Of a DNA stretch of 64,000 nt, positions 13,004 through 20,293 are shown one piece after another; position 1 is the stretch's first letter, and every line of letters begins with the position of its first letter. Source of the DNA: Caldifarciminota bacterium (lineage in GTDB: Bacteria; Hydrothermota; Tepidihabitantia; SM23-42); assembly GCA_020353055.1 (NCBI GenBank), contig CP070686.1:908218-972217 (forward strand), given 5' to 3'. Under the pieces are notes generated by a model, which was not told the DNA's origin, searched no databases, and saw nothing but the letters and a program-made list of their open reading frames with translations. The position numbers and the translations under genes were made by a program.

Positions 13004-14632
13004 ATGAAAAGGGTCCTTTCAGCCCTCGTAGCATGTATATGTTTCACCAGTGCAGCATATGCTGCAGGTACCGTATACGAAACGACTTTCTATAGTCCAT
13101 CATTAGTCAGAGAGTGTTCGGTACAGATATATCTTCCAGACGGCTATGATCCTATGGGAAGTACCCAATATCCAGTCATATACTTTTTGCACGGAGCGCT
13201 TGATAATCACATGGGGTATCCGTTCATTCTGGACATATTCGATACGATGATCGAAGGACAAATAATCGAGCCGGTCATCGTCATTAAACCGGACGGACGA
13301 AGCACACCGTACATTGTCAGCTGGTTCACAAACTCAATACTCAACGGTCTCTATGAAGAATGCATCGTGAGTGATCTGGTGAATTACGTTGAAACAAACT
13401 ACTCTGTAATATCTGACTCGAAATGCCGTTATGTTATGGGTCACTCGGCAGGAGGTTACGGTGCAATGACCCTGGGTCTCAAGCATCCCGGCGTTTTTTC
13501 ACGGCTTGCCGCTCACAGCGGCGTAATGGAATTCAACGTTCTGATCGTGGCCGCTCTTCCCGCACTTCTTGCAGAATATCCTCTGGGACCACCCTACATC
13601 TGGAATCCGTTTGCCGGATTCTTCTCAGGCATATTCTTCTCAATGGGAGCAGCATTCTCGCCCAATTTCCTCAACCCACCTTTTTACGTCGATCTCCCCC
13701 TCGATGAAAACGCACAGATAATTGCACCCATATGGCAACTATGGCTTCAGCACAACCCACCCACTTATGCCGCAGGGTTACCGCCAAATACAGAACCGGC
13801 GATATACTTCGATTGCGGCACCATGGATGAAATGGGATGCTATCCTCAGAATACAGTCTTCGCTGATATTCTTTCACAACTCAATATCGATCATGAATTC
13901 CAGGAATATGTTGGCGATCACTCCTCGGTACTACCCGAACGCTTTCCTATCAGTATCGCATTTCTAGTCGGTCTCAAGGCACATGTTTACTTCCAACCTA
14001 CAATCCTGCACCTTGGCAGCAGTGGCAGTTGGATCACCTGCCACATCGGACTGCCTGGTGATTATCTGGCCACTGATATCGATCCCTACTCGGTCGTACT
14101 CAATGAAATCAATGGAATGGTTCTTGACCCCCCACTGTGTCGTGAGGGACCGATCGAGATCTGTGAGTACCGTGGCGAATTGTGCCTCATGGTGAAATTC
14201 AACCGCCAGAACGTGATCGAGCACCTATATACAATGGGAGACGGCGGCAGGCAAACGGTTGAACTCGCCGTCGCCGGCGAACTCTTCAATGGCATACCGT
14301 TCCACGATGTCGGCGCACTCAACGTCACCGGCACGGGTGGACCGCAGGGCAATGAAGTGGCGCGCAATACAGGCGGAATTCTGTACAAGTGCACACCGAA
14401 TCCGTTCTCGACCACGACCGCTGTTCGATACGAAATTCCCAGTGAAACACATGTACGGATTGCAATCTACAATGCCGTCGGGCAGCGTGTCGTGACCCTG
14501 GTCGATGCTGCGCAAGAAGCAGGTTCTTACTCTGTATCCTGGGAAGGCACGAACCTCCCCAATGGTATCTACATTTGCACAATGGAAACTGACGGGCATA
14601 CCGAAACGCAGAAAATACTACTGATGAAGTAA
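13004..14632 (+). CDS. Secreted alpha/beta-hydrolase esterase with type IX-like sorting domain
   Basis: Extracellular serine esterase of 542 aa, related to the putative-esterase (esterase D/feruloyl esterase) family. Signal peptide MKRVLSALVACICFTSAAYA. The nucleophile Ser lies in YVMGHSAGGYGAM, the oxyanion region in YFLHGALDNH, a probable acid in DCGTMDE and the catalytic His in GDHSSVLPERF (hydrolase about residues 22-330). An Ig-like region follows, then a sorting domain (CTPNPFSTTTAVRY, IYNAVGQRVVTLV, LPNGIYICTM, end TQKILLMK). It has a strong promoter, a 220-nt leader and GGAGG before the ATG. The substrate is unknown; an acyl ester of polysaccharide or lipid is plausible. Confidence 0.9.
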   Translation: MKRVLSALVACICFTSAAYAAGTVYETTFYSPSLVRECSVQIYLPDGYDPMGSTQYPVIYFLHGALDNHMGYPFILDIFDTMIEGQIIEPVIVIKPDGRSTPYIVSWFTNSILNGLYEECIVSDLVNYVETNYSVISDSKCRYVMGHSAGGYGAMTLGLKHPGVFSRLAAHSGVMEFNVLIVAALPALLAEYPLGPPYIWNPFAGFFSGIFFSMGAAFSPNFLNPPFYVDLPLDENAQIIAPIWQLWLQHNPPTYAAGLPPNTEPAIYFDCGTMDEMGCYPQNTVFADILSQLNIDHEFQEYVGDHSSVLPERFPISIAFLVGLKAHVYFQPTILHLGSSGSWITCHIGLPGDYLATDIDPYSVVLNEINGMVLDPPLCREGPIEICEYRGELCLMVKFNRQNVIEHLYTMGDGGRQTVELAVAGELFNGIPFHDVGALNVTGTGGPQGNEVARNTGGILYKCTPNPFSTTTAVRYEIPSETHVRIAIYNAVGQRVVTLVDAAQEAGSYSVSWEGTNLPNGIYICTMETDGHTETQKILLMK

Positions 14633-14692: not shown

Positions 14693-17047
14693 TTATTTCA
14701 GTAGTACGACCTTCTCAACAAACGTAGACTGCTCGGTTTCGAGTTTGACAAAGTAAATGCCGGCAGGGGTTTTTCTTCCGGCATTGTCCTTGCCGTCCCA
14801 CTGCAGCGATACAGCATTACCGGTAACCGATGCGAGATCATAAGACCTTACCAGACGTCCGCCTGCATCATAGATCGCGAGGGTAGATGCCGTATTGTCG
14901 TTAGCCAGCGAGAAGAAAATGCTCGTCCCGTTCTTAGCTACTGTCGGCACGATCTTCAGTACTGATTGTATATTGTTCGTGCCCGAGCCGTTTTCTGTAA
15001 TACCGATAAAGCTCGCCAGGTTACCGAGTTCCCATGCCAAAAGTGAAGGATCACCGGGACTCTCAGTCGGTATGCGGTAGAATTGAGCGAAGAGTCTCAG
15101 AGCATTGTAGGTTGTCGTGCTCAGGCCACTCAGATCGACCGAATCGACTGCCAAACTAGAATAGAAACCTGCCGCATTCCCGGGCAGGTCACCGTCCGGT
15201 ATCAACTGCCAGGTTGAACCATTGTTGTATTCAATCTGGATACCTACCGAATCACCTGCCGTAGCTTTGTACCACACCGCAGTGCCCCAGTTCGGACGGC
15301 TGTACATACCGGCGAGGTCGTCGAAAACAACCGGCACACTCGTAACAGTTCCATCGTTACCAGATGTAGTATAAGTATACCTCAATCCAACATTATCGCA
15401 TGCTCCTGCCCAGCCCCAGTGCGAGGCTGACGTGCTGTCACTGTAAAACCAGTTGAACTGAACAGAATCACACGGTAGATAAGATGTAAGGTCGATGGTT
15501 TCCGTACCGCTCGCGCTTGCTGCATATACAGCGATATCGACCCACGTTGTCCAGCTGCTTCCGGTAAAACGCCGCATCTTGACGCGCATCTTCTCCCCGG
15601 TTTCGTAGAGACGGAACCCGTAGCCGTAGACAATATCCAGGTCAGACGCGGCAGCGGGTATCGCGACCGCAGGCGAGATCAACTCTTCGTTGTAACTGAT
15701 CGAACCGCTCCCGGCATCGTCATCCGAATAGTAAGCGTACGCTGAACCATAATCTGGTGGAGTATAAGTACCGATATCGCCGGTCGTACCCACTGTCCAC
15801 TCGTACGGATCACTATTGCCATTGACAACAGTCCAGCCGGCCGGCATCGTACCGGTCTCAAAATCCTCAAAGAAGAACGTATCGATGAGCGTAGCGCCGC
15901 CGGGTATGATTATTATGCTGTCACCCACAACCGTCGTCGAGAAGAATAGACTCCCGCTGAACTGTTCGCCTTTGGTTTGATACCAACTGCAGGTGTTGTA
16001 GGGAAGGCCGGCAAGTACTGTGAGCGAAAGAGCATTGCTGTACGGCGTCCACATGCCCGTCCCGCCCGGGTCAGACGCACTAACCTTCCACCAGTACGTT
16101 TCATTGTTTGTAAGTGGCGACGGGAATGTAAAGTAGAAGTTGCTGCCGCTTGCATGCGGTGAACTCGTCGTGCTCTCCGGGCTGGTAAAATTCGGATCAG
16201 TATCCCACATAACCCGATACACTATGTCATCACCCTGCGGATCTAATGAATTAAGCACCAGAGTAGGCTGCGACTCCGGGACGCGAACACAGTTGAATGG
16301 TTGCACGACCGCGGGAATCGACGGTGCACCTACCAGGTCTGGCAGTTCAACGATACCTGCCTGAAAGACTTCTTTGTCGCCCGTATCCTCTTGAATCCAT
16401 GTATAGATCCGGCATCTGTCCTGATCCCAACCAATGGGGACATTGAACGAACGGTTGACTGTTATTGAATCACCAGAGGCAATAGTCACCGTCTCACCAA
16501 GTTCATCCGGCAGATAATCACGTGCAACATCGTTGTGCCACGTATCACCGTTGGGCGCTACGTAATAACAACTATCCTCAACGACAACAAAATATACCCT
16601 CGCGGTTATGCTTGCGGTCGAGTCATTCCTGAATTGCGCATATATCGTACCGTCACCGCGGTTCGGCATGTACATCCCCCACATTGTCACAGTTACCGGT
16701 GACGGTTGATTCATCCGGTTCGTTATCGCAGCCGAATACCCGGCTGATACTTGATCGCCGTCCACATAGCAGTCCGGAGTGTAGGTCACACCGTAGAAAT
16801 TGAAACCACGGTTCGCTCCTTCCGCGCAATAGAGTGGATAGGTGCCCACGAGATGAATCTCGACAAGCGCTACTCGATCAAGATAGGTTGCAGCTATTTG
16901 TGCCAGTTGACCACTGACAGATGTACAGGTCCCTCAGCCTTCCTGGTACATCTCTTCAACCAGCACCACGCGCTCGGCACCGAGCGCGGTGTTCAGAAAA
17001 CCCAGCCCCAGCAATAACGCCAGGCTTATCCCAACGACACACTTCAT
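14693..17047 (-). CDS. Candidate selenoprotein: secreted Omp28/thioredoxin-like protein with in-frame TGA (Sec38), adhesin-like domain and sorting domain
   Basis: 784 codons from the ATG at 17047 (AAGGAGG upstream, clear signal peptide 1-24) to 14693, broken only by TGA at 16936-16934 (codon 38). The protein reads across it: VVLVEEMYQEG-U-GTCTSVSGQLAQ, then ATYLDRVALVEIH and TPDCYVDG. This matches the start of Omp28-like thioredoxin-fold proteins, whose EEFTG..C..CP site has Cys where TGA falls, so the motif would be UxxC (U38, C41). A SECIS-like hairpin follows. Later parts: FnIII-like region (about 250-335), cleaved-adhesin-like domain (about 385-580) and a sorting domain ending VEKVVLLK. 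An ATG at 16849 would make a 718-aa product without signal peptide or redox site. A nonsense mutation is the main alternative. Confidence 0.8.
16902..16918 (-). promoter_or_regulatory. Candidate bacterial SECIS element
   Basis: After the TGA, a 15-nt spacer leads into GUCAGU-GGUCA-ACUGGC, a 6-bp stem (one U-G wobble) with apical loop GGUCA; the loop starts 22 nt after the TGA. The E. coli fdhF element, from memory, has a GGUC loop about 19 nt after UGA, so loop and spacing agree well. The fdhF bulged U is not obvious here. Confidence 0.6.
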
Positions 17048-17228
17048 AAAACCTCCTTTTGATACAATCCTGTTCAGCCCTAAGGACTTCCGTTTCCTTT
17101 ACCGATACGAAAAATCCCTCCGATACTATATTGATAATTCGGGACCTGTTATGAACGTACTATTGTAGACAATAACAAAACCTTCGTCAATAGTCAGATA
17201 AAAGTACAGAAAAGCAGCCCAACCCCTG

Positions 17229-17275: not shown

Positions 17276-20200
17276 ATGAAGACCAATTCGATATCCTTCC
17301 TCATAATGGTCACCCTGGTATCGGTAATAATGACATCTATCTCGATTGCACAAAATTCGTACGGGAAGAGATCATTAAATATCCTGCGAGCCGATACGAT
17401 AGAAAATTTCGATGACGGCATCATACAACTCTTCTCGTATCCAAACGAGGATATGGATCCTGATGCTTGGGCACTCGACTCGCTCATCACCTACAACAAT
17501 TCCGCATTCTCGCTGAAGTTGTGGGGTAATACGTGGAAGATAGAAAGTATAGTACCGGTTACACTTGATACTGGTGATGTCTGGCAGGTTGCCGCCTATG
17601 TTGAAGTACTTGCCGAAATTCAGGGATTCGGATTGCGCGACACCGCCCACACCCTGCTCTATTCCTTTGCCGGAAGCCAACAACTGAATACTGAAGACTG
17701 GGTCACCGTGTATCAGGGAGCATTTGCCCAGCAGACCTGGAACAATTACCTGCTGCCCGTTGGTCAGGACTGGCTCGCCTATTATGGATATCTTCCCACC
17801 ATCACCGGTATAGTATTTATGAACGACCGTGATAATGATCCGGACGGCGTGGTCTATTTTGACAACATACTTGATATCACCCACGATCTACCTATGGTAC
17901 CACAAGTCACAATCGAATATGTTGCCGGTGATATTTACAGAGACGCCCACGGTAACAAACTAGTCGACATCCAGTTCTTCAGCACGGTAATCGACACAGA
18001 TTCATGGTATCATGATTATTTCTGGTACTTCGGAGACGACTCAACGAGCAATGAACCTGATCCTTATCACACCTACATTGTCGAGGATGATCATCCCTAT
18101 ACGGTGCTACTCGAAGTTGTCGATAGTACTAACCTGTGGGGGCGAGCAACCTGTCAGGTTACGGTGGATCCCGGACAAACGACATTTCCGTTGATAATGA
18201 ACTTCGTCGGTGATGTAATGCTTGCGCGACGGTATGAATATCCGGGTGGGATAATCCCGACGTTGGGCGTTGAAGCGATCTTCGAACCCACCCTTTCTCA
18301 TCTGGGAAACATCGCTGACATAACCGTGGCAAATCTCGAATGTCCACTGACCGACACTGGAATACCACATCCCACAAAGCCGATCATATTCAGAGGTTCT
18401 CCAGAGAACGTCGCCGGGTTGGTTTATGCCGGCGTCGATGTCGTTACAATAGCCAATAATCATATCATCGATTACGGGCTTGAGGGATTAAAGCAATCAC
18501 AGGCGGTTCTTGACTCGAATGACATTTCATACTCGGGAGCAGGCGCGAACGCCTACGAGGCTTATCTTCCCCTATTTGTTAACAAGAAAGGTACGAATAT
18601 CGCTTTCCTCGCGTCGAGTGAACGAACCGGGCAGTATGACAACTATCAACCGTATCTAAATGCCGGTTTCAACAAGCCTGGCTTTGCGAATTTGACCCAG
18701 TATGACATCTCGCGACAGATCCAGACCGTCCAGAACGATGCCGATGTCGTCGTCGTCGAGATGCATTCGGGTGATGAATACAATCCGATACCCGAATTTA
18801 GCAACAGGGACGAAAAAGACTTTGAAGAAGATGAAATGTATACGCCATTTCTCCTGACCCCAAGCAGGAGTGACATCGCTGACCGACGTCACGCAATAGA
18901 CGAAGGTGCTGATCTTGTTGTCTGCCATCACGTACATGTCTTACAGGGCTTGGAAGTTTATGATGGAAAACTAATCGCGCATTCACTGGGCGATTTCACG
19001 TTCGATCTGAACTACCCGGAAACATATCCTTCGATGATACTCAATGCGAAAATAGACAACAGGGGTATTTACGAATACCGTGTAGTACCCGTATACATAG
19101 ATGATTATATTCCCAGACGGGCACAGGGTGAGCTTGGATCATACATACTTGACTACCTCGCACGTCGCACTAAGGATTTGGATACATATCTCATTGTCGA
19201 CCGCGATAGTGTAACCGCACGAGTCATTCTCGACACAGTCGGTCTCACGTCGACTATAACAACCTTCAGCGATTCCCTGGCATTGCGCGAAGAAAACGGC
19301 TCATGGATATCAAATCCGCTCCGTTTGAATAAAGAAGCTGATATCTCTTCTATCATTACCATAAATCCCTATAGAAACTGGGAGTTCCGCCTTGGCAGGC
19401 AAACCGTCTGGTTCGGCAATTTTGAAGATGAAGGATGCACAATGTGGCTGCTTGACCATCCGGATGAATTCTACGATGACAGCATTTTCTATGCGGGTGC
19501 CAGGTCTTTGTGCCACTTCCGTTCGCAAAACAATGTCACAATCGCCACCCATCTCGAAAACCGCATGCCGTGTTACTCAGACACTACCGATTTCACGGTT
19601 TGCGGATACATCCGAACAGATAACGCGAATAATGCCGAGGTGATGATTCGGTTCTACCAATCGCGAACGAGTGGTATTTCCATAGGATCAGAGACCACTG
19701 GACAGCTCAGTGGTACCAACGACTGGGCTTTCTATTATACAAACTTCGTGCCTGCAAATGGCACTAACTTCATTGACGTGTGGCTGCGAAGCGAGGGTCC
19801 ACAATCGGGCGACGGCTACACCTGGTTTGATAATGTAGGCGTCATCGAATGGGAAGATTGGCAAATATTCAATACACCTGTGGACATCACAACACCAAAT
19901 GATTATTACTGGCTGCAAATAAAGACAGATGTTGAGACATTCAGTGCATCATTATCTTATGAAGAGAAACTCTATGATGTCCAGACGGAAGTACATGACT
20001 ATGAAACAAAGAATACGACCCTGACATCGCTGCGTTGTTTTCCCAACCCTGCAATTTCCACAATCACGTTCCAGTATTCTCTCGGCAAACCCGCAGATGT
20101 CAAATTGAGTGTATATAACATTCTCGGACAGGAAGTAAGGAGCTTGAGCACCGGTCATCAATCCGCAGGCAATAAGACAGTACAATGGGATGGGTATGAC

Positions 20201-20293
20201 AACCAAGGTCGACGCCTTGGCATGGGAATCTACTTCTGCCGGTTGCAGACAGGGAAACACACAACAGCTGAGAAAATAATCCTGTTGAGGTAG
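17276..20293 (+). CDS. Secreted multidomain CapA-family (PGA_cap) metallophosphatase-like protein with sorting domain
   Basis: Extracellular protein of 1005 aa with a signal peptide (1-25). A jelly-roll/carbohydrate-binding-like region (about 40-200) is followed by a PKD-like domain (about 208-298). The CapA domain (about 305-600) has NFVGDVMLARRYEY, VANLECPLTD, IANNHIIDYG, VVEMHSGDEY, CHHVHVLQGLEVY and HSLGDFTF. A second jelly-roll region (about 690-865) precedes a sorting domain (CFPNPAISTITFQY, VYNILGQEV, GMGIYFCRL, end AEKIILLR). CapA-type domains share the calcineurin-like phosphoesterase fold and are linked to poly-gamma-glutamate synthesis; here a secreted, multidomain form makes that role unlikely. 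Two small cytosolic genes follow at once. Confidence 0.88.
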   Translation: MKTNSISFLIMVTLVSVIMTSISIAQNSYGKRSLNILRADTIENFDDGIIQLFSYPNEDMDPDAWALDSLITYNNSAFSLKLWGNTWKIESIVPVTLDTGDVWQVAAYVEVLAEIQGFGLRDTAHTLLYSFAGSQQLNTEDWVTVYQGAFAQQTWNNYLLPVGQDWLAYYGYLPTITGIVFMNDRDNDPDGVVYFDNILDITHDLPMVPQVTIEYVAGDIYRDAHGNKLVDIQFFSTVIDTDSWYHDYFWYFGDDSTSNEPDPYHTYIVEDDHPYTVLLEVVDSTNLWGRATCQVTVDPGQTTFPLIMNFVGDVMLARRYEYPGGIIPTLGVEAIFEPTLSHLGNIADITVANLECPLTDTGIPHPTKPIIFRGSPENVAGLVYAGVDVVTIANNHIIDYGLEGLKQSQAVLDSNDISYSGAGANAYEAYLPLFVNKKGTNIAFLASSERTGQYDNYQPYLNAGFNKPGFANLTQYDISRQIQTVQNDADVVVVEMHSGDEYNPIPEFSNRDEKDFEEDEMYTPFLLTPSRSDIADRRHAIDEGADLVVCHHVHVLQGLEVYDGKLIAHSLGDFTFDLNYPETYPSMILNAKIDNRGIYEYRVVPVYIDDYIPRRAQGELGSYILDYLARRTKDLDTYLIVDRDSVTARVILDTVGLTSTITTFSDSLALREENGSWISNPLRLNKEADISSIITINPYRNWEFRLGRQTVWFGNFEDEGCTMWLLDHPDEFYDDSIFYAGARSLCHFRSQNNVTIATHLENRMPCYSDTTDFTVCGYIRTDNANNAEVMIRFYQSRTSGISIGSETTGQLSGTNDWAFYYTNFVPANGTNFIDVWLRSEGPQSGDGYTWFDNVGVIEWEDWQIFNTPVDITTPNDYYWLQIKTDVETFSASLSYEEKLYDVQTEVHDYETKNTTLTSLRCFPNPAISTITFQYSLGKPADVKLSVYNILGQEVRSLSTGHQSAGNKTVQWDGYDNQGRRLGMGIYFCRLQTGKHTTAEKIILLR

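Follow-up and report, generated by a model that had tools for sequence, protein, structure and literature searches.

The window analysed here, 64,000 nucleotides long, spans bases 908218-972217 of a 2.69 Mb genome that is assembled as a single contig. A 784-codon frame begins on its minus strand with an ATG at 17047 and closes with a TAA at 14695-14693; it is crossed by a single internal stop, the TGA of codon 38 (Table 1). A sequence-only reading had proposed this frame as a candidate new selenoprotein, with a signal peptide and a ribosome site upstream of the one TGA (16936-16934); the frame was reproduced. The placement of the TGA at the first Cys of a CxxC motif, giving U-G-T-C, is borne out by the translation, in which the codon lies in the context VEEMYQEG-U-GTC, and by the homologous codons described below. 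Several homologs are likewise preceded by ribosome sites resembling AAGGAGG, and the signal peptide would probably be cleaved between ALG and AE. The gene is flanked by genes for a PGA_cap protein (window 17276-20293) and a putative esterase (13004-14632), both of which end in T9SS-type sorting domains.

Table 1. Features of the putative selenoprotein gene, in window coordinates
Feature	Position	Strand	Basis or remark
Putative selenoprotein gene	14693..17047	(-)	784 codons including one predicted Sec TGA; TAA end; translated with TGA=U
TGA codon 38, read as Sec, first residue of U-G-T-C	16934..16936	(-)	Homolog column: TGA 105, TGT/TGC 28
Ribosome-binding site AAGGAGG	17052..17058	(-)	4 nt before ATG; read from sequence
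Signal peptide, residues 1-23	16979..17047	(-)	Sequence; aligned homologs also with hydrophobic N-terminus
Resolving Cys 41 of UxxC	16925..16927	(-)	TGT or TGC in 133/133 homologs
Putative SECIS hairpin	16902..16918	(-)	Stem 16918-16913 with 16907-16902; apical loop GGUCA 16912-16908
Thioredoxin-fold domain, residues 25-118	16694..16975	(-)	AlphaFold2 model, Foldseek, profile matches
Omp28 (PF11551) match, residues 84-230	16358..16798	(-)	35.6 bits, cut-off 34.9
Cleaved_Adhesin domain (PF07675), residues 392-474	15626..15874	(-)	25.5 bits, cut-off 21.4
C-terminal FlgD_ig / type IX (Por_Secre_tail) sorting domain, residues 706-781	14705..14932	(-)	PF13860, TIGR04183

Twenty TGAs in the window were listed as candidates for read-through, and two of the 20 combine a Cys at redox-motif spacing with an open continuation. 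The continuation is long only at the TGA of codon 38, where it extends for 746 codons versus 111 at the other Cys-spaced TGA.

With the first 240 codons as query, relatives were found in 93 of 147 genomes of the phylum (WOR-3/Stahlbacteria). The genome under study holds at least five copies of the family, and the five found each carry one TGA. We extracted and aligned 134 places, 133 of them readable at the site, and at the position of codon 38 the alignment shows an exchange between predicted Sec and Cys: the codon is TGA in 105 homologs, TGT in 20 and TGC in 8, with no other residue and neither TAA nor TAG in any of the 133. Homologs with Cys at this position, for which the sequence-only reading had suggested a search, thus number 28. 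Cys 41, the second half of the pair, is invariant in two alignments (A2 and A3).

Lone in-frame stops are a common artefact of metagenome-derived genomes, and the TGA could on that account be a real stop, arising from sequencing error, nonsense mutation or the decay of a pseudogene, with everything downstream of it dead. The same TGA is, however, kept in 105 homologs from 55 genomes, far more often than chance would allow, TAA or TAG takes its place in no homolog, and the 700 codons behind it evolve with a dN/dS of about 0.06. The latter value comes from comparison with the ortholog in genome G089, which is 90% identical over the first 240 codons and has the same TGA: codons 39-240 have a dN/dS of 0.058 and the codons after them one of 0.065, at a dS of 0.6-1.1. 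These values indicate purifying selection, and hence that the stretch downstream of the TGA is translated and serves a function. Pseudogene and sequencing error were rejected on the conservation of the TGA and of the downstream codons, and we regard the chance that the codon is a genuine stop as negligible.

The sequence-only reading was right that no selA, selB, selC or selD lies in the window; the sel genes lie at a distance of about 0.45 Mb, on the contig that also holds the window, and the machinery that it had proposed to look for is complete. The selB gene occupies 450209-452089 (SelB, 346 bits against a cut-off of 242) and is adjoined by selA (SelA, 551 bits), with a tRNA-Sec gene at 448326-448415 (75 bits; called by ARAGORN as tRNA-SeC, anticodon TCA) and selD at 461771-462676 (SelD, 324 bits). 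This selD has an in-frame TGA of its own near the N-terminus (MMENKKKGILATVKCAGUASK). PMC13188914 lists SelD among verified selenoproteins and gives its motif as UxxK, which the CAGUASK of the present SelD fits, so that the genome would contain a second, independent Sec gene. Just downstream of selD lies a 90-aa frame, again with an in-frame TGA (...KDEIISSUKAVITASGGG...; L186:874-1143, minus strand; record G000:C1, at about 461 kb), which has no NCBIfam match and is a possible further selenoprotein.

Across the phylum, the TGA form of the family and the Sec machinery occur together. TGA forms are present in 55 genomes, and selB or tRNA-Sec was detected in 52 of these; the three genomes in which both are missing are 66-90% complete and lie in 170-760 contigs. 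Cys forms alone are found in 15 genomes, none of which has Sec machinery (Fisher p 1e-12, a value that ignores kinship). In several relatives, though not in the present genome, selB has a member of the family no more than about 15 kb away. Members a few kb from selB or tRNA-Sec were seen on G093:C59, G076:C1, G067:C48 and G094:C151, the distance to tRNA-Sec in G093 being 170 bp, and this closeness suggests that the family is linked with the Sec machinery.

Behind the TGA, the sequence-only reading had described a hairpin with a GGUCA loop at a spacing typical of bacterial SECIS elements, and the fold is indeed present: a stem of 6-7 bp beginning 15 nt after the TGA and a 5-nt loop beginning 21 nt after it, with an MFE of -8.6 kcal/mol. 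The published bSECIS model calls for a loop of 3-9 nt, a stem of 4-16 bp, a G in the first two loop positions, a loop 16-37 nt after the UGA and an MFE of -7.5 or lower (PMC13188914), and the window hairpin falls within every one of these limits. An Rfam search of the hairpin site gave no match. The stability of the single hairpin was rejected as evidence in its own right, at z = +0.41 against dinucleotide shuffles, no better than the shuffled sequences.

Pairing is nevertheless conserved across the TGA homologs. In 82 TGA sequences of the window type a mean of 5.24 of six pairs can form, versus 2.98 (sd 0.13) after synonymous recoding, and all six form in 41 of the 82, versus at most 8 when the sequences are recoded with the protein preserved. 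The paired fraction is 87.9% in register and 14-53% with one arm slid, and pair 24/30 has switched nine times along the tree between C-G and T-A, changes of the compensatory kind; in about 10 of the 82 sequences pairing in this stem register is poor. Mean MFE z is -1.77, versus -0.07 in the Cys homologs, which show no pairing excess. A second type of hairpin, with the loop AGGU and placed two bases further on, has all seven pairs in 14 of 22 sequences (null maximum 3) and a weaker MFE excess (mean z -0.77). Between the window gene and its G089 ortholog, codons 42-51, which lie over the hairpin, have accumulated no synonymous change at a dS of about 0.6. Support for the putative SECIS element is therefore comparative, coming from the homologs and not from the stability of the hairpin itself.

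These observations also bear on the idea that the UGA is decoded as a standard amino acid, through suppression or recoding, or that the two parts of the frame are translated separately. Decoding as a standard amino acid is difficult to reconcile with homologs in which the alternative is always Cys, with the company that TGA forms keep with selB and tRNA-Sec, with the N-terminal TGA of SelD in the same genome and with the conserved SECIS-type hairpin behind the codon, while separate translation would cut the thioredoxin fold behind its first strand. We consider either version very improbable. Of the three observations that the sequence-only reading had named as refuting it (no homolog with Cys at the site, no Sec machinery, a TGA missing elsewhere), none was made. 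The internal TGA almost certainly encodes selenocysteine, the only reading that fits the sequence evidence, and we infer that Sec is actually incorporated: codon 38 would be read by means of SelA, SelB, SelD and tRNA-Sec, with the hairpin downstream as the signal.

The protein that would result is a predicted exported, thioredoxin-like protein with several further domains. The AlphaFold2 model shows a thioredoxin fold for residues 25-118 (pLDDT 95.7, pTM 0.85), in which the UxxC stands directly before helix 1 and an invariant Pro 91 occupies the cis-Pro region. Foldseek returned clear thioredoxin matches for this 94-aa domain, and a profile search matched it to 2axo and 1fo5; a Foldseek search with a 351-aa model was uninformative, most of its matches being to beta domains, transglutaminases among them, at TM-scores below 0.35. 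Modelling also shows a beta-rich part after the thioredoxin domain, in the region of the Omp28 match. The Omp28/thioredoxin-like assignment made from the sequence is thus supported, with PF11551 marginally over its gathering score. So is the type IX-like sorting domain proposed for the C-terminus: the profile matches show a domain of this kind (PF13860 45.6 bits, cut-off 27; TIGR04183 31.6 bits, cut-off 23), and SprA, the type IX translocon, is encoded in the genome (390 bits, cut-off 200). Since type IX-type tails also match FlgD_ig, surface delivery is no more than a probable reading of the tail.

Based on these features, we suggest that the signal peptide would carry the protein across the inner membrane and that the Omp28-type beta domain and the type IX-type tail would place it at the outer surface. 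There, with the thioredoxin CxxC turned into UxxC, Sec 38 would attack and Cys 41 would resolve the resulting selenenyl-sulfide, and the role of the protein would most likely be that of a thiol/disulfide (selenol) oxidoreductase in which the selenol and Cys 41 exchange. Alternatively, the domain into which Sec is inserted might bind metals, metalloids or selenium, or trap them, or might work at the surface as a redox switch of a structural kind. Such a role would be in keeping with the expansion of the family in G067, a genome with seven TGA copies, and with the position of some copies near other secreted T9SS-tailed proteins; but oxidoreductases usually have the very arrangement seen here, with the UxxC placed just before helix 1 and an invariant proline in the cis-Pro region, and we think the alternative unlikely. 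An exported, Sec-decoded protein of thioredoxin fold that most likely acts as an oxidoreductase at the outer surface is the explanation that we hold, taken as a whole, with high confidence; Sec decoding is nearly certain from the comparisons, whereas surface display and redox activity are inferred.

To trace the history of the Sec site, a quick tree was built with IQ-TREE from the 133 sequences; the site itself was left out, the search was short, the root was drawn at the midpoint and sampling was by similarity to the window gene. Eight changes between Sec and Cys are needed on this tree, at least five of them forced by well-supported branches, versus 26 with shuffled labels. The tree divides into a mixed part, with 26 Sec and 28 Cys copies, and another side of 79 copies, all of them Sec (support 98), in which the window gene sits. 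Its close relatives are mostly about 350 aa long, with the same kind of tail. A scan of 85,000 named genomes, for which the alignment of the clade served as query, had WOR-3 loci almost exclusively at the top of its similarity ranking, and among them every short-form locus had the TGA. A search of viral contigs gave no match. One WOR-3-like TGA copy, L176 (LKUE01000313.1), comes from a contig of 3.1 kb that is assigned to Desulfuromonas sp. SDB, and represents either a transfer or a misbinned contig.

Further genes recur around members of the family. A third thioredoxin-like type, of about 250 aa, with a lipoprotein-like N-terminus and a TGA at the same site (e.g. FTEDGU..C), is encoded a few genes downstream of some of them (L151:3301-4053, L155:6741-7496, L162:6170-6901, also L161, L166 and L169). 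A secreted protein that is about 190 aa long and begins ...NGDFEQ.L..GW recurs behind family members (L152:5407-5970, L155:4686-5246, L161:4607-5179, L169:4420-4983, L170:5253-5840, L173:4022-4591), often with a T9SS-tailed protein after it; the three copies scanned had no Pfam or NCBIfam match. In Planctomycetota, three copies of the Omp28-like type, each with a TGA, stand in tandem in L183, and L184:2893-5367 and L185:2923-5418 encode an Omp28-like domain with an in-frame TGA, fused to a further region that matches multiheme cytochromes and the UshA-like selenoprotein model NF041198.

The exported thioredoxin-like family is largely unrecognised and often multi-copy, and one of its branches is known only in the selenium form. 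Its distribution suggests that uncultured WOR-3 bacteria use selenium in a whole set of exported proteins, with up to seven copies per genome. We raise, as a tentative proposal that we rate at somewhat under an even chance, that WOR-3 cells carry out selenium-dependent redox chemistry at their surface, that the duplicated, type IX-delivered clade is Sec-obligate (79 of 79 copies, no reversion to Cys seen), and that the Sec machinery persists in these genomes on account of the extracellular function of the clade and not through chance retention. Such genes are truncated by annotation pipelines that take every TGA as a stop. Searches that depend on Cys homologs, a limit stated for deep-Sep (PMC12013277), can miss Sec-only clades such as that of the window gene. 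The family puts surface selenium chemistry within reach of tests with cloned genes.

Among known systems, the nearest is NF045500, 'Omp28-related selenoprotein', which is the GOS_C of the 2026 catalogue and has a UxxC motif (PMC13188914); GOS_C dates from 2008, when the GOS data yielded 74 of its sequences with Sec and 312 with Cys (PMC2398784). What was called a candidate new selenoprotein therefore stands as a selenium reading and is less new than proposed, being one of at least five copies in its genome, a member of a phylum-wide family and related to a selenoprotein already named. The likeness is considerable: both are Omp28-like, with a thioredoxin-like fold, a UxxC motif and both Sec and Cys forms. 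All 25 relatives tested match NF045500, weakly (best E 7.7e-17), and the thioredoxin and beta region of the window protein does so significantly (40 bits, E 2e-10, for its first 351 aa; 37 bits for the whole protein). These matches would allow the window protein to be seen as a plain member of the NF045500/GOS_C family, yet the curated cut-off is 200 bits, the best E among the 25 relatives is equivalent to a score well short of that, other relatives reach at most 106 bits, the match of the window protein ends at position 271 of the 377 in the model and the C-terminus differs, with a T9SS/FlgD_ig tail on a protein whose own clade is Sec only. Plain membership is accordingly improbable, and filing the window protein under NF045500 was rejected on its score. 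A search for true NF045500 members via planctomycete and other genomes returned sub-threshold relatives only.

Other families share parts of this architecture. NF033782, the Omp28 family outer membrane lipoprotein, is also matched by 25 of the 25 relatives tested (best E 4e-21), but the window protein scores 31-34 bits against a cut-off of 150 and has Sec in place of Cys. Thioredoxins (1fo5) and Atu2684 (2axo) have the same fold and the redox pair in the same place; unlike them, the window protein has a predicted attacking Sec, is predicted to be exported and has beta domains and a sorting tail fused to it. SaoT, the HUIPC-motif protein and other thioredoxin-like selenoproteins (PMC13188914) also combine this fold with UxxC but are separate families for which NCBIfam has distinct models (NF040730, NF047660), and these gave no match to the window protein at E 0.01. 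Among the papers searched, none dealt with Omp28 and selenoproteins together, and none made a relevant connection between selenoproteins and type IX secretion. The window protein can thus be understood as belonging to a kind already known from NF045500/GOS_C, within which its family forms a separate, large branch with an architecture of its own and a clade that is apparently Sec-obligate.
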